Shown here piece after piece: positions 3,001 through 62,979 of a DNA stretch of 64,000 nucleotides. Source of the stretch: Nautilus pompilius (Eukaryota > Mollusca > Cephalopoda > Nautilida > Nautilidae); the NCBI GenBank assembly GCA_018389105.1, contig JACATO010000680.1, positions 1,494,001-1,558,000 on the forward strand, read 5' to 3'. Position 1 is the stretch's first letter, and every line of letters begins with the position of its first letter. Under the pieces are notes generated by a model that did no database searches, had not been told where the DNA came from, and was given only the letters and a program-made list of their open reading frames with translations. The position numbers were made by a program, and so were the translations under genes.

Positions 3001-5690
3001 CTTACAAAGGACAGAAAGTCAAAGTATGGTTTGTTGAAGTCCCGAAAAAATGAAGACATCACACTAAATCACTGACTTTGCATGTGACAGAACAGTAGCC
3101 AATATATCAATCAACGTTTCTGTTAAGCATTGTTTCAATGACATGCATCATCTTAGGATGTCTAAGGTGCAACTTACACGAAATCATTAAAGAAAAAGCA
3201 CACTTGAACATGCACAAATACTGCTAAAATGTCTGTGTGCATTTCCAAAGAAGTGAACATGGACTCTTCACTGAAAGTATGATGTCAACACAGATCACAT
3301 GACCCAGAACTCCTATAGCAACTGTTTACCTTCAATATCCATCAATGATATTCCTTCTCAAAATAAAGTACACACAGTTTTAACAGATATTATTAAAATT
3401 CAAGATTTAGTTGCAATGGGAAGATTACATATAAAAATTTATTATTTTCAGTTATACTTTGCAGTGATCATTTGATGATATTGAGCTTCTGAAATTTCAA
3501 TTAAAAAAAAAAAAGCAATGTCAAAGTCCACACAAACACTATCTTGCACAAAATCCCAGAGAGCATTAAGCAGAAATGAAGCTGTTTATGGTCTTCTTGA
3601 CAGGAGAACATTGGTAATACATATACATCTCTGAAAAGTATTGAAAGTTTATACCAGAGATGTTAAAATGAAACCAAGCCAGATACAATTGAAAAAATCT
3701 ATTCCAACCAGATTTTACTTTAATGCCCTTCATATTTACTGATTTCTTTTGATTTTTTTTAAAAGGGAGTTTTAAGTTACTGAGTGTTTAGTTTCCCTTT
3801 AAGAATATCAGAAGCTGTATTTGAGAAGAGTTTTAGAACAGTGGATCCAAAAAATTTTGCAGAATATTTATTGACAGAGGCAACTTGTGCACAATAGGTG
3901 TTTTTTTTCAGCTACCTAGATCAAGATTCTCTTACCTATGGCCCTAAGGCCGGATCTAGCCCGTCAGAGAGATTAATTTGGCCCACCATACAAAATTAAC
4001 TAAACAGGAAACAGCCTGTCAACAGTGCCTGTGCAGGAAGCAAAGCTCAAAGTGGATTGGTAATACAGGCTCATGCAGGCTGACAATGAAAACCTGTATG
4101 CTAAAAGTTACAGCATATGATGATTCATGTCAACCAATAACTAGAAGCCAAATGGATACACATCCATGATCCTGTCACCAAAGAATCACAACAATGGAGG
4201 TCCAGTACAATTTGATAAAGGCCATTGGTCAACAGCATCTACTCAGTATTAACCTACCAGTTAGGTGAGTTGGCATAAATTAGGCCCTCACTAATGAATT
4301 GCTCTGGTGAAATATTAAACTGTTTTAGCAAACTTTTCCAGTCCACGTTTCAGTGAAACCTAATTCAGCAAACTCTTGCAATTAGATAGGTATGTTTCAG
4401 CAAACTTCATACTGATGGATGCACTTTGTTTTAAAGATCCTGTTTCACTGAAGAGTTGTTCATTTGGTTTCACCCATCTAACCTTTTCAATTGCAGAGGC
4501 ACCAATAATGGGAGAAGGCATCTCCGCAACCAAGAATTTGAAAATAAAAGATAGACAATTAGTTTTTCACAATAAATAAATATAAATTTTTAAATAGACA
4601 AGTATAATATTACCATCATTATAAAAATTTTTTTGATCATAGTCATCTTTAATTAAGCCTTTGTTTTAACTTTCTTTATTGAATGGAGATGTTAGTCTGT
4701 AGTTTTCATCTTTACTGTTGTCATAGCACAGAAATATAATGCAAATCTAGTGTTGAGTAAGTTCCAATCTATTTTAAGTTTTATACAAAAAGCCAAGTGA
4801 TATCTATTCTAAAAACTATATCAGGTGGCATCCTTGAGTTTATGACTCTTTTCAATTTTTGCCAGTCAAGATGGTGCGCACTTTGTCTTTCTCACTAATA
4901 GCCATTTTGAAAGAATTAGCTCATACTTTGAATGTGTCATTTGACAATTCATTGCCATAATGATCAATCAAAATGCCCAATATATCTAAACTGAAAACCC
5001 ATTTGTTTGTTTGATGGTCGCTGGGAAAGTCTGAGGTTTTGTTTAACAGACATTTCTCACTCGCTCACACATGAAATGTTTTATGCAGGATGTCAGGATG
5101 TGTATTAGACTCAAAATGTGAGTATTGCAACGAGTGTGTTATCATTATGCATGTAATGCAATTTATAAATAAACATTAGTTTGCAGTCAATGAGTTATAA
5201 CATTAAAGTTTCAGTAAAGTAATTTGAAACCAGTAAAATTTGTGAATTATTTTTCAATGTCTCAGAACCATATACTTGTGTTGTGTGCATTATCTATTAT
5301 GTTTCTAGGCTTTTAAGATCAGATTACAGTTATTCATGTTCTTTTACATATGCTTAACTATTGAGTTAACTTCTACCATCCATGCAAAGGAAGAAAGAAC
5401 CCAGTTAGCAGAATAAATCATTCTCTTCATTTGTTTGTTACATATATGTTTAAGTAATTGGCACTACATGGGGAAAAATGGCTTTAGGCCAATGTGTTGT
5501 AGCTTAAAATTTTGCCCAGATTCTGAAGTTCCTACACCAAAAATCTGGGGCTTCTAGGTGCTACTGTTCAGCCATGAATAGCAAACACTTGAAAGTATGT
5601 ATTAGATATATAATATAAGTACAATAAAAACTGATACCACATTCCTCAGAGCCAATGAAGAAAAAAATCAGCAAAGTCACTTTGGATCCT
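1..5690. other. AT-rich non-coding stretch, probable BLTP3 intron 1
   Basis: No exon, RNA gene or recognisable transposase was found here on either strand. The short open frames in it (for example 544-807, 1592-1840, 2865-3062, 3978-4169) have no family resemblance and no good splice borders. It lies downstream, on the minus strand, of the BLTP3 first exon, so it is most simply part of a very long first intron. That is an inference, because exon 2 was not found in the window. Confidence 0.4.
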
Positions 5691-18863: not shown

Positions 18864-20887
18864 TACATACATTTATCAGTCAAACCAAAATCTTACATGT
18901 TTGTGTGATTAAACAAGAATTCAAATTCTTATAAACTAGTTTTCAAATGTTTAAATTAATTTTGAAAGAAACAAAAATGCTGTTATGGACAAGGGTGATT
19001 CCAGGAAGAAAAAAAAATATTATTAAATGAAACAATATCAGCATGATGAAACAACATTGTATGATTGGAAGAATATCAGTCAATTGCTTCAAATGTGCCA
19101 GATCCTACATCTGAGACATTTTGATGGAAGACTTTATACTATGTAGTAAAATAATTTCAATATCATAGATCATAGATGATTATATTTTACTTTATAAAGA
19201 AATTGCAAGATCCATAAAAACATTTGCTTATTTTGCCATTAAGAGAATTTAAAAAATTACAAATCTTTTGTTTTTAAATTTTGTATTATTATGTATCATT
19301 AATGGCTTAAAAAATCTTTTTGAGAAATTAATCTTTAAACAGTTAGTAATCTTACCAGCTACTGTCCAGCCTAAATGTCCTGAAGTCACAAAAAATAATA
19401 TCAAGATGAAACATTAATTTTGACACAATATTTTCCAAAGAACTTTCCAGTAATTATAATAAAGGATCTCATTTGGCAGTAAATAGTACATGGCATGACC
19501 AATTTAGGTCATCTATTTTCAGTCTGAAAAAAATATTGCATAAAATTTTAATAAGGTACCAAATTTAAATAATATGTTGCAGAAAGTTAATGTTCAGGTG
19601 GTTAAATTTTCTCTAATTCAGCATAATTGTATTAGATCTTCCACATGGTAAGACAAATCTAAAGCTGCTGAGCTGATTCAAGACAGTGTTCTCATCTTTC
19701 ATGGCAATACATGCATGCTTTAGTTCAGCTAATTATGACCTTTGCATTAGTACTATTATACATTCACTACTTAATTTAGCAACATTTGATGATCTTTACT
19801 TTTGGCCATTAGGAACACATCTTGGTAGATTCAAGTAATCATTTTAAAATAAGTGGTTTTCATACCACAGAAGTCATGTTGATTTATTCTGGAAATATAA
19901 TAACCAAGGAAATGTAGGCAGAGTTGTGGAGCAGATAAAGATTTTAACAGTATAACAAGAGGACCGTACAGAGATCTCTTTGGCTTTGGTCTGATGTTTT
20001 ATAGTGTAGCTGTAGAATAGAAACTAAATCAGAAGCACAACAATGCAGAGCAAAAGAATTTGATATAAACAAAAATCTTAAAAGGAACAGAAAATGTTAT
20101 AGTTCCAAACAGAACACAAAAAATGATTGGCTGATCAATGTAAAAAAAAAGTTCTTAGAATCTTAGAATGAGTGAAAGAGAAAAAAACTTTAACTTTTAG
20201 AAAGAGAATCAATAGTAAAAGATGAAACAGAACTGTAGCCATAAATCTACCAAATGATATGTACAAGTTTATACTGGTAATAAATATTTCACTAGTAGAT
20301 ATTTTATACTTTATCAATTTAATTATTTTGCACACCACTTATTGCACTGATTTAACTGTAAACAGACTGAACAAGATTTATAAATATCTGTGCAATAATC
20401 TTTTTTTGAAATTGTATTTAATTTTTGTTTTACAAACTTGTCAACTTTCTTCAGAAATAAAACTCAGCCATTTCAGATCTGCCCTTTAATTGCAATATAA
20501 CATCGAAAATGAGAAAGTATACAAAAACAAAGAATAAAACAGAAACATTGAATTTAAATTGGAAACACAAAAAACATTTAAACTTATCTTTATCAGGGCT
20601 TTTTGGATGCATTCGCAAAAAAAGAGAGAAAAAAATCTGGCTGTTAGATATTCTGAGTTATCTAATTACACTGGTCAACAAATTTTTATTTTTTTTCTTT
20701 GGCAGACCATCTAGGAGTGTTTTCTGGGGTTTTGAAGGTCGCTGATTACGAATATAACATTGGTTTTGTGTCTGATTGGCTCTAGTTTAGAAGATATTGA
20801 TAGCCTCAAATAAGCCTAAACTGCTAAAATTCTCCCTGAAATACTTCAATATAGAAGCAGTAAATAATAATTTTCTGATATTATTGA

Positions 20888-21952
20888 ATCATTATAACAT
20901 ACTATAGGACAAGGGAAGGCAGCTTGCTTCGTTTCTTTTCTAAAGAAGATGACCTGATCTTTTGTAATGACGTTTCTGCACTTCTTAACTGCATGGGGAT
21001 CTCGTCATATGACCCAGCAGATTGGCGTCTCTTTATAGATAGCTCGAAAGCAAGTCTAAAAGTTGTACTTTTGCATAATGGCAATAAGTTTGCTCCTGTA
21101 CCACTTGGCCATTCTACCAAGATGAAAGAAGAGTATGATGGTATCCAATTTGTTCTTGAAAAGCTAAATTACAACACTCATAAATGGCTGATTTGTGTGG
21201 ACTTGAAAATGGTGAATTTTCTGCTTGGTCAGCAAAGTGGGTACACAAAGTATCCCTGCTTTCTTTGTTTGTGGGATAGCAGAGCAAGAATCCAGCACTG
21301 GAGAAGGGAGAACTGGCCAGAACGAGAAAGTCTCGAAGTCGGCACAGCCAACGTCATCAATGAGCCTTTGGTACCCAGGGATAGAATCATCTTCCCTCCA
21401 TTGCACATAAAACTAGGGCTCATGAAGCAGTTTGTTAAGGCGTTGAACAAAGATGGGGATTGCTTCAAGTACATATGCAGGCAATTTCCAGGTCTTTCCA
21501 TCGAAAAAGCTAAAGGTGGCATCTTCGATGGACCTCAGATTCGAACGCTCATGAGGGATTCTGACTTCACTAATCATATGAACATGGTTGAGTTAAATGC
21601 TTGGGTGTCCTTCACAGATGTAGTGACAAACTTTTTGGGAAATCACAAAGCTGACAATTACAAGCAATTGGTCCGTAAGATGCTTACTGCATACGAAAAA
21701 CTAGGGGCAAATGTGAGCATCAAAGTTCATTTCTTGTTTAGCCACCTCGACAGATTTCCTGGTAATCTTGGTGATTACAGTGAGGAGCAAGGAGAGAGAT
21801 TCCATCAAGACATCAAAACAATGGAAGAGAGGTATCAAGGCAAATGGGATGAGCACATGATGGCAGACTACTGCTGGAACCTTTTGAGAGACTGCCCGAA
21901 AGTTGCTCACAAGCGAAAATCGTATAAACGTCAATTTCACTTTTGTGAATAA
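20888..21952 (+). CDS. Putative transposase of an uncharacterised invertebrate family, N-terminally truncated
   Basis: The frame is open from 20,888 to a TAA at 21,950-21,952. It has no ATG near its 5' end (the first candidate start, 20,924, is TTG), and it opens with YYRTRE followed by FFSKEDDLIFCNDV. I recognise motifs of a protein family scattered in large numbers through arthropods, cnidarians and molluscs but not functionally described as far as I know: WRLFIDSSKASLK, PCFLC followed by WDSRA, PPLHIKLGLMK, NFLGNHKADNY and DYSEEQGERFHQD. Numbering from 20,924, an Asp at 93 (CVDLK), the C-x2-C at 112/115, a His at 161 and Glu 287/288 would fit an RNase H-like DDE transposase with an inserted C/H motif; that is an inference. 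Relatives are longer at the N-terminus, so this copy probably lost its 5' part by internal deletion. AATAAA overlaps the stop codon. Confidence 0.65.
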   Translation: MIITYYRTREGSLLRFFSKEDDLIFCNDVSALLNCMGISSYDPADWRLFIDSSKASLKVVLLHNGNKFAPVPLGHSTKMKEEYDGIQFVLEKLNYNTHKWLICVDLKMVNFLLGQQSGYTKYPCFLCLWDSRARIQHWRRENWPERESLEVGTANVINEPLVPRDRIIFPPLHIKLGLMKQFVKALNKDGDCFKYICRQFPGLSIEKAKGGIFDGPQIRTLMRDSDFTNHMNMVELNAWVSFTDVVTNFLGNHKADNYKQLVRKMLTAYEKLGANVSIKVHFLFSHLDRFPGNLGDYSEEQGERFHQDIKTMEERYQGKWDEHMMADYCWNLLRDCPKVAHKRKSYKRQFHFCE

Positions 21953-22123
21953 AATATTGTTTTGTGTGTTCATTGTAACTAAGAATCTAGTGTATAATAA
22001 TGCTTTGCATTAATTTATGATATATAACTGATTATGTAAATGTTTTTTTCCCTTGGAGAATTAAAATTCAGCAAATTTTTAGCAAATTTTTTGTATATTC
22101 TCGAAATATATGAAAAGTGTTCA

Positions 22124-22129
22124 TTTATT
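22124..22129 (-). terminator. Candidate poly(A) signal for the phosphatase gene, inside the transposon
   Basis: AATAAA on the minus strand is the first canonical poly(A) signal seen downstream of the phosphatase stop codon (22,527-22,529). It falls within the CACTGGTCAACA element. Whether it is used cannot be told from sequence alone. Confidence 0.3.
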
Positions 22130-22526
22130 AATAAATGAAATGATGTTATATCTAACTTAACTTGTTAGATTGAGATTTTACACTGTCTTTGTGGTTTTGG
22201 ATTATCATAAAAATCAATATCTGACATTTTTGCACTATTTAGCCGTTTTTTGTACGTTTAGTTATGGTCGCGAATGGGTGATTTCAGACGAACGACCCCC
22301 CTGTGATATCTCCAAAACTAGAGCCAACTTGAAAAAACAAATGTCAGATTCGGATTCAGCGCCCTTGAAAACCCCAGAAACCAGTCTCACTTTTCCTGCC
22401 AAAAATATTGTGTTGACCAGTGTTATCATTAGAATTTTTTTAAAAAAAAGCAAATTTCATGAAAAGGTCTAATTGTTAATGTTCATAATAAATACTTAAT
22501 GGAAAGAAAGAGAAACCATCTAAATT

Positions 22527-37240: not shown

Positions 37241-37813
37241 CTACTATATCAATCAGCTTGTGATTTTCAGTGAAAATCATGGCATCATTGTTCCATGAAC
37301 ATGTAAATTCATGGGCTAATTTGGCAAAGGAATATACTGTTTTCTGTAATTTCTGATTGCCTTCCCTTCATAAGTGGAATTGAAAATACTGTCATGTTCC
37401 AATAGACCAATACACACCTGGAAAAAATCTAGCATTTCCTTCCTCAGTAAAAACATATACAGTTTATCATTACATGTTTACTAATAAACATGAAGATGGA
37501 GATTATATATTTAGTGATAAACATACTTTTTTGCAAGTTTACTGACAAAATACTGTTGGTATTTTGGTCCAAAGAATACAAATTCATTAATTGCATGAAA
37601 AAAATATTTGCTTTCCTAAAATTTAACAAAATATCCCCAAAAAAAAAATAAAATAAGAGAGTTAGGTTGGAAGGAAGATAACATTTAGACATGGCATACT
37701 CCAAATTAAAAAAAAAAAAAAAAAAACAGATGCAAGGGAAAAAGAAGGATTTTCTAGATACCATAAATGAAGCCAGCATAAAGAGAAAGAATCAATTTAC
37801 CACAACAACTCAC

Positions 37814-38950
37814 CAATACAACTTTCGTCTAACTCCACATAGTCACCACCATCTGAAGAAGTACACCGGCCTTCTACTGGCTCCTTTTTCATCACAGTAT
37901 AGTTCATTCTCTCAAAGTCTGAATGCTTCTGCATGGGCAAATTACTCTTTCCATTCTGAACACCATCAAGGTGAGGCACAGAATATGTAGCTGCATCATT
38001 TAAAAGTGAATGGTGTATAATAGTAGTTGGCACCTCAACCTGCCTTCCACATGGAACATTTCTTTGCAGTGGTTGATCCTTCTTTGGCCTGTCTTTCATG
38101 TGTAATTGAAGAGGAACTTTTGATGGTGGCATCTTCTGAATGTTCTTATTCTTGCTAGCATCTTGGGAGGATTGCTGCCTTTCATTTTGAACACTATCGT
38201 ACAAGTTACTAGAATGCTCAACTGAATCTGGTTTAGATTTAGATGCATCCTGGAAATATTTATGATTTTTATTTGAAATGGCATGGTACAAATGATTAGG
38301 ATGTTCTGATGCATTTATTTTATCTGAGCCGGATGTCAAAGTTATGGCATCACTAATCTCAGCATATAAATCTTTATTTTTTACAGTGGATGAGGAGGAA
38401 TGCAATTGTTGGCTAGTTTTTGGTGACAGCATTCTTTTGGGAATCATATCTTCATATGCATCATTAGCTAATGATCTCTGGTTTTTCTCAGAAACCACAT
38501 TAGAGTAAGCATTATTGTTATGATATATATGCCTATTATTTTCATCCGCAGAATATGCTTTATTTTTCTCCGAATCCAAAGATATGAGAGTCACAAAACT
38601 ACATTCCCCTTTGTTAGAAATATCCTGTTTTACATTTACATATGACAGTGCTGGTGATTTTGGCACTGTAGGTTTAGATTCTTTTGTCGGTGCATTATCA
38701 GGAAGATGTTTTGGTCCAGTGAATGATTTATACAGCTTAGAAACATTGCCATCTGGTTTTTGCACAAAGCACCCATTGCTGGATTTCTTAGCAATGGGCG
38801 GAATCAGAGGTTGCTGGTCTGGCAGAGCAGTTTCAGTTGGTAGGGGAGCAGGGTGATGAGAAAGTATATCAGTTTTCTTTAATAAAGTGGAGGATTCAGA
38901 ATGCATGATGTTTTTAATATCTTCATATGTTTGGTTTTTCTCCACTGCAC
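37814..38950 (-). CDS. PTPN12: PTP-PEST-like, large tail exon rich in phosphotyrosine docking motifs
   Basis: A 1,137-nt exon runs from CTCTCTACAG|GTGCAG to TATTG|GTGAGT and is open throughout (about 379 codons, phase 1 in, phase 1 out). It encodes the non-catalytic tail, which is hydrophilic and rich in Ser, Asn, Lys and Asp. A proline-rich stretch near its start (PAPLPTETALPDQQPLIPP) could bind SH3 domains. Tyrosines recur in short motifs: TYEDI, SYVNV, AYSNV, AYEDM, LYAEI, LYHAI, LYDSV, NYTVM and DYVEL. YVNV and YSNV fit the pY-x-N consensus of Grb2-type SH2 domains, and YEDM and YTVM fit the Y-x-x-M consensus of PI3-kinase p85. Three of the motifs sit in a loose tandem repeat of about 27 residues. 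Vertebrate tails of this group are instead dominated by PEST and proline-rich stretches. Confidence 0.85.
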
Positions 38951-40370
38951 CTGTAGAGAGATTGAAAAATCCAGCATAAACCCAACAAACACAATAAGAA
39001 AAGTCAGCAAGTCTGACAACTGGTTCCATCATAAAGATAAAGCAGGTACACCTTATTACACCATTCTGGCCTCTATACTATATTCTTGTTTCTCTTCTGT
39101 GCTAAAACAATGTTGCTTCTAAACTATAGCACTGTCACTTCTATTATTCCAGTCTTGAATATTCTACTAGAACCCGGGTTAAGAAAAGTAAGAAAAATCA
39201 CGAGTAACCTCAGAAAAACTCCAAGAAACAGAAAAGTGAGGGATCCCTGGTCGAACAACAAAGTTGCCTGGGAAGGTTACAAAATAAATTGCAGTTTCCT
39301 AATAACCCACTTATTCACTCACCAGAATCATGGAGGAAAATAAAACAGTTCTGTGTATCTTTGGCGAATATCGAATGAAATTTAAAAGCTTTAATTCAAA
39401 AATATTTAAAGGAAACTTTAACATCAAAATTGGAGTATTTCCACCATACATCCTCCAAAAAAAAACTAGTATTTTGTTCCAATGGAGCTTTCCACTCTTC
39501 CATTAATCTCAGCAAAGTCATTACAGATAATTAAAAAAACAACAACAAAAAACCTTGCTATTTTAGTTTTTTTTTTTTAAATTAGAGGGTAATTAGTGCA
39601 AACCCACCCTCTCCCCCCCACAGTAATGCAGAATCTACCTCAGCATCATTCTTGCCTCTTTGATACTACAAAATTCCCTTGCAAATGTAACCAATGCATT
39701 TTTGCAATTGGAAACCTTACCATTAGAGTTTCCTGATAATTATCTGCCCTTCTACCTAATGCATGTGCCACAATGAGCTGGTGTAAAAATGTCCAGTTTG
39801 TTTAATTTTTGAAAGTCTATCAAGTACTGGAATTCTCTCTCAAAACCCTGTTATCTGCTCTTTCTTGTTAATGGAAATGCATTGTCTCATCAAAAAGACG
39901 ACATAAAAAATCTGATGGAGGTGTAAACCAATGTGACATTGTTATCACTTGAAAATTTTTTAAAATTATATAACCAGCAAGTTGTTTTTTTATTATGAAA
40001 GTTAAATTTAGTTCATAACAAAATCATTATGTCTTCATGTTCATCCAATATAATTTCTCACTAATTTAAATACTTATAGTTCATGTTACCCTCTTTTTTT
40101 TATAAATGCTAAGGGATCTCATTACTGATGACTGTTGCTGCTTTGTTTGGCAGATGAAAATGGCTCCTAGAAACAAAATCCCAAATATAAAAATGTTATC
40201 ATCCCTTATTTCTCTGTAAAAAGCTGGTTACTCCCAATAGAAAATTGTAGGGAGTTTGAATTACACAGGGTGGTATACAAATATACATTTATAAAATAAA
40301 GTCAACTGCCTGTCATGAACTGAACAGGCCAAAGAAGAAGAAGAAAAAAAAATCCTTTTCTAACCTGCTG
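38951..40370. other. Intronic sequence
   Basis: Phosphatase intron. No feature recognised apart from homopolymer runs. Confidence 0.4.
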
Positions 40371-42607: not shown

Positions 42608-42997
42608 GGTATGATTTTATACTTGTTCCTAAACATGACTACCGTCCATCTATAAGAACTGGCAAATCTTAAAGAAATAATTATCCTATAAAAATATAAA
42701 CGGTAATTTTGAACCCTAGAGTCAAAAGGTTACAGGAGCAGAAAGTTGGTACAACTTACACAGGTCCTTTTTCACCAGAAATCTATTTCTTTGACTAACT
42801 GATATGGTAAAACATTTCAGGCAGATAAGCCACCATTACTGAAAAACAAATACAAGTCTTTTCTAATGTGTAATCAACAATGCTTTTTATTTATCTTACA
42901 GTGGTGATGTATATTAGTGTTGTGTCAAGAAGTGGTAATAACTATGGACTAATCAGTAAGATATCTCACACTCCATACATAAATTTATATTAGTATG

Positions 42998-44420
42998 TAC
43001 GAGGTCTGTCCAAAAAGAAACCGAACTTTTAAAACAGTGCGCCAACAAGCCGGCGCAGCGTGCTCGCGACTGCAGTGCTGTGTATCGGTGACTTTGACCT
43101 TCAGTCTAATAATAGCCGCATCACACCACGTCAGTTAGTCATCGATCTACACGCGCTAGAGTGAATGCATGTTTAGTGCACTTGGCGATTTGTCGCAAGT
43201 TGAACAATGAAGGAACTTGAAGAGCAACGTGTTTGCATGAAACTCTGTTTCAAATTGGTAATGTAACAGGCCTATGGGGAGGATTGTTTGAGCCGTACAC
43301 AATGTCACGAGTGGTACCAGTGTTTCAAATTGGGAAGAACATCCACCGAAGACAATCCCAACAGCAAATCCAGAGAGTAGGGCGGCTGGAGGATGAGAGT
43401 CATCTTGTGCTTTTCAAAAAAGTCACAAATAAGGAGTGACGTGTGAGCAGGTGCGTTGTCATGGTACAGCATCCAGGTTTTGTGTTTCCATGCCTCAGGC
43501 CATTTCCTTCACACTGCCTCTCTCAACTGCCTCAGGACATCCAGGTAAAACTCTGTATTGATCGTCTGACCACGTGGAATAAATTCATGATGAACGACGC
43601 CCTTCCAATCAAAAAAGACAATCAACATCACCTTCACATTTGAGCAACTCTGACGTGCTTTTTCGGTCATGGCAACAATGATCCAACCCACTTCAATGAC
43701 TGCCTTTTTGTTTTGACATTGTAGCCATACACGTTTCATCACCTGTTATGATACTTTTCAGAAAGCTTTCATCAGCATTCAAACGATCAAAGAGCTCTTG
43801 ACTGACTGTGACTTGGTTCTCTTTTTGTTCATCTGTCAGCAGATGTAGCGCAAATTTTGCGGCTACATGATGCATGTTCAATTTTTCTTTTCAAATCATG
43901 TGGCACGAACCTTTACAGATACCTACTTCTTCAGAAAATTCACGGACAGTCAGGCGACGATTTCCATGGATCACAGAACACACTTTTACAATGTGATTAT
44001 CATCTGTTGTCGTGGAAGGCCATCCAGATTTGGGATTGTCTTCGGTGGATGTTCTTCCCAATTTGAAATGCTGGTACCACTCGTGTCATTGTGTACAGCT
44101 CAAACAATCCTACCCATACGCCTGTTGCAACATTATAAAAGTCTCTGTAAATGTTTTTCCCAATTTGAAATAGAGTTTCACACAAACACATTGCTCTTCA
44201 AGATCCTTCATTGTTCAACTTGCGACAAATCGCCAAGTGCACTAAACATGCATTCACTCTAGCGCGTGTAGATCGATGACTAACTGACGTGGTGTGATGC
44301 GGCTATTATTAGACTGAAGGTCAAAGTCACCAATACACAGCACTGTAGTCGTAAGCATGCTGTGCCAGCTGGTTGGCGCACTGTTTTAAAAGTTCGGTTT
44401 CTTTTTGGACAGACCTTGTA
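42998..44420 (-). mobile_element. Mariner element with about 0.37-kb inverted arms
   Basis: The element (43,000-44,418, 1,419 bp, flanked by TA) has ends that read CGAGGTCTGTCCAAAAAG on the left and, inverted, CAAGGTCTGTCCAAAAAG on the right. The inverted identity does not stop after the roughly 30 bp usual for mariner. It continues through 43,360 on the left and back to 44,031 on the right, with one deletion of about 27 bp in the left arm. The arms therefore include the 5' UTR and the first roughly 60 codons of the transposase. Between the arms lies the rest of the transposase, up to the third catalytic box. The real 3' end of the element has been replaced by an inverted copy of its 5' end. 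Confidence 0.85.
43361..44211 (-). pseudogene. Mariner transposase, broken
   Basis: The minus-strand start at 44,209-44,211 reads MKDLEEQCVCVKLYFKLGKT, the usual mariner opening. In-frame TAG and TGA stops follow within about 50 codons, and further frame changes occur. Recognisable pieces are ITGDET with the first catalytic aspartate near 43,745, IVFFDWKGVVHHEFIPRG near 43,610, a Y-H-D-N-A-P-A-H box near 43,465 and P-Y-S-L-D-L near 43,375 with the third aspartate (DD34D class). The frame then runs into the inverted 5' copy at 43,360, so the normal C-terminus is absent. The element cannot make its own transposase. Confidence 0.8.
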
Positions 44421-44579
44421 TATATAATATAATGAAGCACATTAAAAACACACCAATTCAAAAGTGAAATCATTTGACATATACATTTGGTCAAGGAAAT
44501 GTAAGCTTACTGTCAAAATTAATTGCCATGGTCCTTTGGTGTCTGCCATAAGTATTGATGATGTAATTAAATGATGTTG

Positions 44580-61409: not shown

Positions 61410-62979
61410 ATATTGGAAAGACTCTGATCGCTTGCATCTCAAAAAATTAGAATATCATGGAAGAGTTCAATGTTTTTTGTCAGTTATTTCAGAGACTCAT
61501 TACATGTAAACTAAAATGTTTTAAGCATTTTTAAAATTTAATTTTGATAATTACGGCCTACAGCTCAAATAAATAGAAAAAAACGTATCTCAAAATATTA
61601 GAATATTCCATTTTGAGTTTGAGTAAATCACTATTTATGCAGTATAAATACCACGAATTTCTCAGTCTGGTTCACTACACTCAACCTCAATCATGGGGAA
61701 GATTACTGACTTGACAGTCGTCCAGAAGACACTCATTGACACCCTCCACAAGGAGGGTAAGCCACAGAGGTCGTTGGTAAAAGGGCTGGCTGTTCACAGA
61801 GTGCTGTATCAAAGCATATTCATGGAAAGTTGACTGGAAGGGAAAAGTGTGGTAGGAAAAGGTGAACAAGCAAGAGGGATGACCTCAGCCTTGAGGATTG
61901 TCAAGCAAAGCGGATTAAAGAACTTTGGGGTGCTTCAAAAGGAGTGCACTGAGGCTGGAGTCAGTGCATGAAGAGCCACCATGCACAGGCGTGTCCAGGA
62001 AATGGGCTACAAGTGTCGCATTCCTAGTGTCAAGCCACTCTTGAACCAGAGACAATGTCAGAAGCGTCTTACCTGGGCTAAGGAGAAAAAGAACTGGACC
62101 GTTGCTCAGTGGTCCAAAGTCCTCTTTTCAGATGAAAGTAAATTTTGCATTTCATTTGGAAATCAAGGTCCCACAGTCTGGAGGAAGAGTGGAGAGGCAC
62201 AGAATCCAAGTTGCTTGAAGTCCAATGTGAAGTTTCCACAGTCAGTGATGATTTGGGGTGCCATGTCATCTGCTGGTGTTGGTCCACTGTGTTTTATCAA
62301 GTCCAAAGTCTACGTAGCCATCTACCAGGAGATTCTAGAGCACTTCATGCTTCCGTCTGCTGACAAGCTTTATGGAGATGCTGATTCCCTTTTCCAGCAG
62401 GACTTGGCACCTGCCCACAGTGCCAAAACTACTAGTAACTGGTTTGCTGACCATGGTATTACTGTGCTTGATTGGCCAGCCAACTCGCCTGATCTGAACC
62501 CCATAGAGAATCTATGGAGTATTGTCAAGAGGAAGATGAGAGACACCAGACCCAGCAATACAGACTAGCTGAAGGCTGCTATCAAAGCAACCTGGGCTTC
62601 CATAACACCTCAGCAGTGCCACAGGCTGATCACCTCCATTCCACCCCCCCCATTGATGAAGTGATTCATGCAAAAGGAGCCATGACCAAGTATTGAGTGC
62701 GTAAATGAACATACTTTTCAGAAGTTCGACATTTCCATATTATAAATCCTTTTTTTTTTTATTGATCTTATGGAATATTATAATATTTTGAGATAGTGGA
62801 TTTTTGATTTTCATGAGCTGTAAGCTGTAATCATCTAAATTAAAACAAAAGGCGGCTTGAAATATTTCACTTTATGTGAAATGAATCTAGAATATATGAA
62901 AGTTTCAGTGTTTGAATTAAATTACGGAAAAAAATTAACTCTTCCACGATATTCTAGTTTTCTGAGATGCACCCGTATA
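61410..62979 (+). mobile_element. Near-complete Tc1 element (teleost/lamprey-type)
   Basis: The inverted ends are TGCATCTCAAAAAATTAGAA followed by TATC on the left (from 61,434) and, inverted, TGCATCTCAGAAAACTAGAA followed by TATC on the right (to 62,971). The right end finishes within a TATA-containing stretch at about 62,975-62,979. The exact left border (61,410-61,434) is uncertain. The interior encodes a DD34E transposase that closely resembles Tc1 elements I know from teleost fishes and lampreys. The copy lies in a phosphatase intron, antisense to the gene. Confidence 0.85.
61694..62696 (+). pseudogene. Tc1 transposase, recently broken
   Basis: It starts MGKITDLTVVQKTLIDTLHK at 61,694. 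The DNA-binding half is disrupted by small frameshifts between about 61,760 and 61,980. From 61,981 a 195-codon open frame runs through LFSDESKFCISFGNQGP (first D), LFQQDLAPAHSAK (second D) and WPANSPDLNPIENLW (E), with 34 residues between second D and E. A TAG at 62,566-62,568 interrupts it, after which the same frame continues to a natural-looking end H-A-K-G-A-M-T-K-Y at 62,696. Few lesions in 1 kb suggest a young insertion. It is not expected to be active. Confidence 0.85.

Follow-up and report, generated by a model that had tools for sequence, protein, structure and literature searches.

What kind of element occupies positions 20669-22422 of the window, and to which group of transposases does the protein encoded within it belong? 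The window is the 64-kb stretch of a Nautilus pompilius contig that was analysed here, and all positions are counted along it. A sequence-only reading of the same DNA had described a short inverted end on either side of one long frame and had left the protein outside any named superfamily; the protein family itself is, we assume, widespread and carried as uncharacterised in invertebrate gene lists.

Long inverted repeats and a TTA duplication bound the element

The element measures 1,754 bp and has the same 12-bp sequence, CACTGGTCAACA, at both of its ends, at 20669-20680 on the plus strand and at 22411-22422 on the minus strand, both copies being exact. A TTA lies directly outside each end, and the whole site reads A/TTA-(CAC...GTG)-TTA/T. 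The exact inverted ends with TTA flanks that had been noticed in the sequence-only reading are thus confirmed by their coordinates, and they extend further than described there: the 12-bp ends are the tips of longer, imperfect inverted repeats, 129 bp on the left and 117 bp on the right (Table 1). BLASTN aligned 20715-20797 with 22306-22386 in inverted orientation (83 bp, 79.5% identity, E 3e-14). Local alignment of the outermost 130 bp on either side gave a score of 84, while the highest score among 5,000 random pairs drawn from elsewhere in the window was 38, so that none of the 5,000 control pairs scored as high as the ends of the element.

Table 1. Positions in the window of the element's ends, flanking duplications, transposase frame and candidate catalytic and zinc-binding motifs
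Feature	Position	Strand	Remark
Left TTA target-site duplication	20666..20668	.	preceded by A at 20665
Left terminal inverted repeat	20669..20797	+	tip CACTGGTCAACA, inner part imperfect
Transposase frame	20888..21952	+	likely CMC/Chapaev3-type DDE catalytic part, N-terminal part probably missing; first ATG 20993
Candidate first catalytic Asp, D39, in FIDSSK	21038..21040	+	putative role
Candidate second catalytic Asp, D93, in ICVDLK	21200..21202	+	putative role; 19 residues before C(2)C
C(2)C motif, C112 and C115	21257..21268	+	read from translation
LH motif, L160 and H161	21401..21406	+	read from translation
H(4)H motif, H269 and H274	21728..21745	+	read from translation
Candidate catalytic Glu, E291, in GERF	21794..21796	+	putative role
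Right terminal inverted repeat	22306..22422	-	alignment to left end
Right TTA target-site duplication	22423..22425	.	followed by T at 22426

These repeats bear on whether short ends with TTA beside them could have arisen by chance on both sides of a transposase-like frame. In a window of 66% A+T, matching 3-bp flanks are no rarity: among 714 exact inverted 12-bp pairs lying 0.5-6 kb apart, 25 have them, and just one of these 25, namely this element, starts with CAC. The 12-mer CACTGGTCAACA itself, with up to two mismatches allowed, has 6 occurrences in the window where 5.9 would be expected (the exact occurrences being the two ends only), and since this frequency is close to chance, the strength of the case rests on the long inverted repeats instead. 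Spanning 117-129 bp, with a score that no control reached and with a CAC boundary that has A and T as its neighbours, the repeats refute coincidence as far as the ends are concerned, and we put the chance of this reading as a whole at next to nothing. Ends, flanks and long inverted repeats together support the earlier proposal of a cut-and-paste DNA transposon.

Within the 64-kb window we found no other copy of the element and saw no empty site, and the TTA duplication is known from one insertion. Elsewhere in the window, positions 4223-4234 read CATTGGTCAACA, with one mismatch to the 12-bp end; matches with up to two mismatches are at chance level.

The enclosed frame carries the motifs of a DDE transposase

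A single long plus-strand frame lies between the inverted repeats, as had been reported before; it stays open for 354 codons up to the stop at 21950-21952. The first in-frame ATG comes 35 codons into the frame, and 319 residues are possible from there. With residues numbered from the codon at 20924, the translation contains, in this order, D39, D93, C112-x2-C115, L160-H161, H269-x4-H274 and E291, which agrees with the D, C-x2-C, H, E layout of DDE type with an inserted C/H motif that the sequence-only reading had proposed. In shuffled versions of the protein the pattern D-x18-C-x2-C...H-x4-H...E arose in 236 of 200,000 cases, and in 30 of 200,000 when LH was included as well; the spacings were chosen after they had been seen, and these counts are a guide rather than a test.

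A profile search of the protein, which had been suggested earlier, was run against Pfam and NCBIfam, and no model in either matched. Glycosyl hydrolase 18 (E 0.02-0.09) and SbmA/BacA (E 0.08-0.12) came up below the cut-off and make no sense with the motif layout. No relative was found by tblastn of phage and plasmid collections at E up to 0.01, nor by scanning viral-contig and prokaryote genome collections with exact back-translated patterns, which detect near relatives only; the collections cover viruses, plasmids and prokaryotes, and no animals. Six contigs picked by the back-translated motifs (L001-L006) encode no relative (best tblastn E 0.13), and further stretches that matched the patterns, 4 in one scan and 15 in another, were rejected by tblastn. 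A text search of the literature with protein strings of the window gave no match.

Ends, target site and motifs fit Chapaev3

Chapaev elements, which belong to the CMC group, are described as having CAC...GTG termini and duplications of generally 3 to 4 bp (PMC4079192). According to passages of the same source, Chapaev3, whose families include Merrow, Garfield and Conan, duplicates TWA with an A on the 5' side and a T on the 3' side in all elements examined there, and three motifs regarded as typical of Chapaev, C(2)C, LH and H(4)H, occur in the silkworm Chapaev3 transposase (PMC4079192). The element studied here has CAC...GTG termini within inverted repeats, a TTA duplication between a 5' A and a 3' T (on one insertion), and C(2)C, LH and H(4)H in order, with a D before and an E after them; its size is similar as well, once a missing N-terminus is allowed for. 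CAC...GTG ends, TTA in an ATTAT site and C(2)C-LH-H(4)H make up the set published for Chapaev3, and the view that the protein has no named superfamily is accordingly not supported. The sequence-only reading had itself named, as one outcome that would speak against it, a match to some known superfamily that shares these ends. This outcome is approached: the agreement extends to CAC...GTG, TWA and the motifs.

The element thus fits Chapaev3 of the CMC group, a placement made by motifs and ends and not by alignment or tree. Taken together, we think it likely that this is a Chapaev3-type cut-and-paste copy of the CMC/CMCT group and a distant relative of Transib and RAG1, non-autonomous and with its N-terminal part probably deleted. 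The insertion would then be one more that is consistent with the ATTAT target rule of Chapaev3, and it represents no new kind of system. At the same time, a protein without a Pfam model gains a name and a likely function as a transposase, and such proteins in animal gene lists are best taken as transposon genes rather than host genes.

An assignment to EnSpm sensu stricto or to a still unnamed branch of CMCT is the alternative to Chapaev3, and we regard it as unlikely. The motifs C(2)C and H(3-4)H recur across the CMCT lineages, along with CA...TG ends in the majority and duplications of 2-5 bp; CAC...GTG ends together with 3-bp duplications identify EnSpm, and both are seen here, while PlavakaB has CATCA...TGATG ends with a duplication of 2 or 3 bp (passages of PMC12730594). 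Moreover, Repbase merged Chapaev and Mirage into EnSpm (PMC4455052), and the protein has no Pfam match by which a branch might be told. Because of this overlap, ends and motifs alone cannot fix the branch. What argues against the alternative is the TWA with A and T neighbours, reported for all Chapaev3 elements examined (PMC4079192) and present here on one insertion. Furthermore, CACTA/EnSpm in the narrow sense is alike in its CMC-type motifs, CAC...GTG ends and 3-bp duplication, but a match to Transposase_21 (PF02992) is absent here, as judged with two lengths and three pieces of the frame at E up to 10, a setting at which few matches above about 0.1 pass the HMMER filters and which leaves room for a distant kinship. 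PlavakaA, with TGT...ACA ends and a 2-bp duplication, and ESTA, with TA, also depart from what is seen here. Animal TRC elements (SmTRC1-like CACTA), which share the CMC-type motifs, were considered and set aside, since they have CCC ends and 2-bp duplications, unlike the CAC and TTA of this element. Lanisha as the name of a transposon appears, among the matches listed, only in PMC12730594.

The duplication would also suit a PIF/Harbinger element, as Harbinger duplications are TWA (PMC4482050) and TTA is found here. However, A or G is the usual first base of Harbinger ends, whereas those of this element start with C, and about 93% of Harbinger inverted repeats are shorter than 60 bp (PMC4482050), compared with 117-129 bp here. 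The C(2)C-LH-H(4)H set, too, marks CMC rather than Harbinger, and no Harbinger-type Pfam model was among the lines returned for the protein, making a Harbinger origin extremely improbable in our judgement.

Motif spacing compared with RAG1 and Transib

A tree published in 2015 includes Chapaev3 together with Transib and RAG1 (PMC4411706). RAG1 is the enzyme behind the rearrangement of antibody genes. RAG1 has D708 as its second Asp, C727, C730, H937 and H942 as zinc ligands and E962 as its Glu (PMC4914335). The second Asp and the first Cys are 19 residues apart both here (D93-C112) and in RAG1 (D708-C727), and H269-x4-H274 matches H937/H942. On the other hand, 157 residues separate the first Cys from the first His here, against 210 in RAG1, and 17 residues separate the last His from the Glu, against 20. 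The likeness to Transib and RAG1 consists in the DDE layout with C-x2-C and H-x4-H. A single-sequence fold model, with a mean pLDDT of 33 and carrying almost no weight, would place D39 in a strand, D93 just past one and E291 in a helix, which is the arrangement of DDE enzymes. The protein differs from both in that phmmer gives no match to their solved chains; this search of solved structures by sequence had no match at all (best E 0.6), and no Transib or RAG1 chain was among what it returned.

The comparison leaves some space for a reading in which the family branches off on its own within the RAG1-Transib-Chapaev tree, outside Chapaev3 and so far undescribed, while being common in invertebrates and lacking a Pfam model. 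We consider this rather improbable; if true, such a branch would help to show the origin of the zinc-braced DDE core of the RAG1 type.

The copy probably lacks its N-terminal part

Returning to Chapaev3, a difference from the published proteins is at the front, where this copy is without about 200 N-terminal residues. Chapaev3 has been reported with an N-terminal Chapa zinc-finger domain (PMC4411706). There is no such domain in the copy, and the 90 bp that separate the left repeat from the frame are too short for it; on the forward strand two frames are interrupted by stops there, and the third is open for 38 codons only (20791-20904). Among Chapaev3 consensus sequences, Garfield_BM has 556 aa in 2,289 bp, and 78+484 aa are given both for Merrow_PM, of 2,451 bp, and for Merrow_LC, of 2,455 bp. 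Compared with these three (556-562 residues), the present frame falls short by 202-208 residues, some 600 bp, at its front, and adding 202-208 codons to the 1,754 bp gives roughly 2.4 kb, in agreement with Chapaev3 sizes.

Considering that about 200 N-terminal residues of published Chapaev3 proteins are absent, the copy is probably internally deleted and non-autonomous. The simplest reading of the size comparison is that an internal deletion near 20890 probably took the N-terminal part, and the copy would then depend for its movement on a relative at another genomic site that supplies the complete enzyme. It could instead be a natural short form, translated from the ATG at 20993 and not defective. 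A 319-residue product starting there would retain everything from D39 to E291, and for this reason the defect is something that we infer rather than observe.

The long open catalytic frame, with its inner ATG, might also be taken for a host gene that was domesticated from a transposase and has lost its mobility. Two observations argue against this: the frame is enclosed by matching ends and a duplication, and the left repeat is only 90 bp away from it, too near for some 200 additional residues to be encoded in between. We therefore hold domestication to be very improbable.

A model for excision and insertion

The enzyme of this group is of the RNase H-like DDE type with a zinc-braced insertion; cleavage occurs at the CAC ends, which the enzyme then links to the target DNA. 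For the Chapaev3-type element described here, transposase molecules would bind the long inverted repeats, with D39, D93 and E291 as the putative RNase H-like DDE site and with C112, C115, H269 and H274 as a predicted zinc site that may brace the catalytic core. Excision would take place exactly at CAC...GTG, and insertion into ATTAT with a 3-bp stagger would leave TTA on both sides. The copy in the window could presumably move only in trans, by the complete enzyme of a relative.

Other repeats and frames in the window

Three further features of the window are recorded here. A Tc1/mariner relic occupies 61433-62971; its inverted repeats, about 180-200 bp long, are 67% identical and enclose a 195-aa frame (61981-62568) that matches DDE_3 (E 8.5e-16) and, below the cut-off, HTH_Tnp_Tc3_2 (E 1.9e-05). 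On the minus strand, 37797-39032 is an open frame of 411 aa with no Pfam match, possibly an exon of a host gene. Positions 42985-44432 contain a pair of inverted arms, each about 380-400 bp long and 88% identical to the other, separated by some 670 bp; we take them to resemble a mariner-type element or a pair of pieces.
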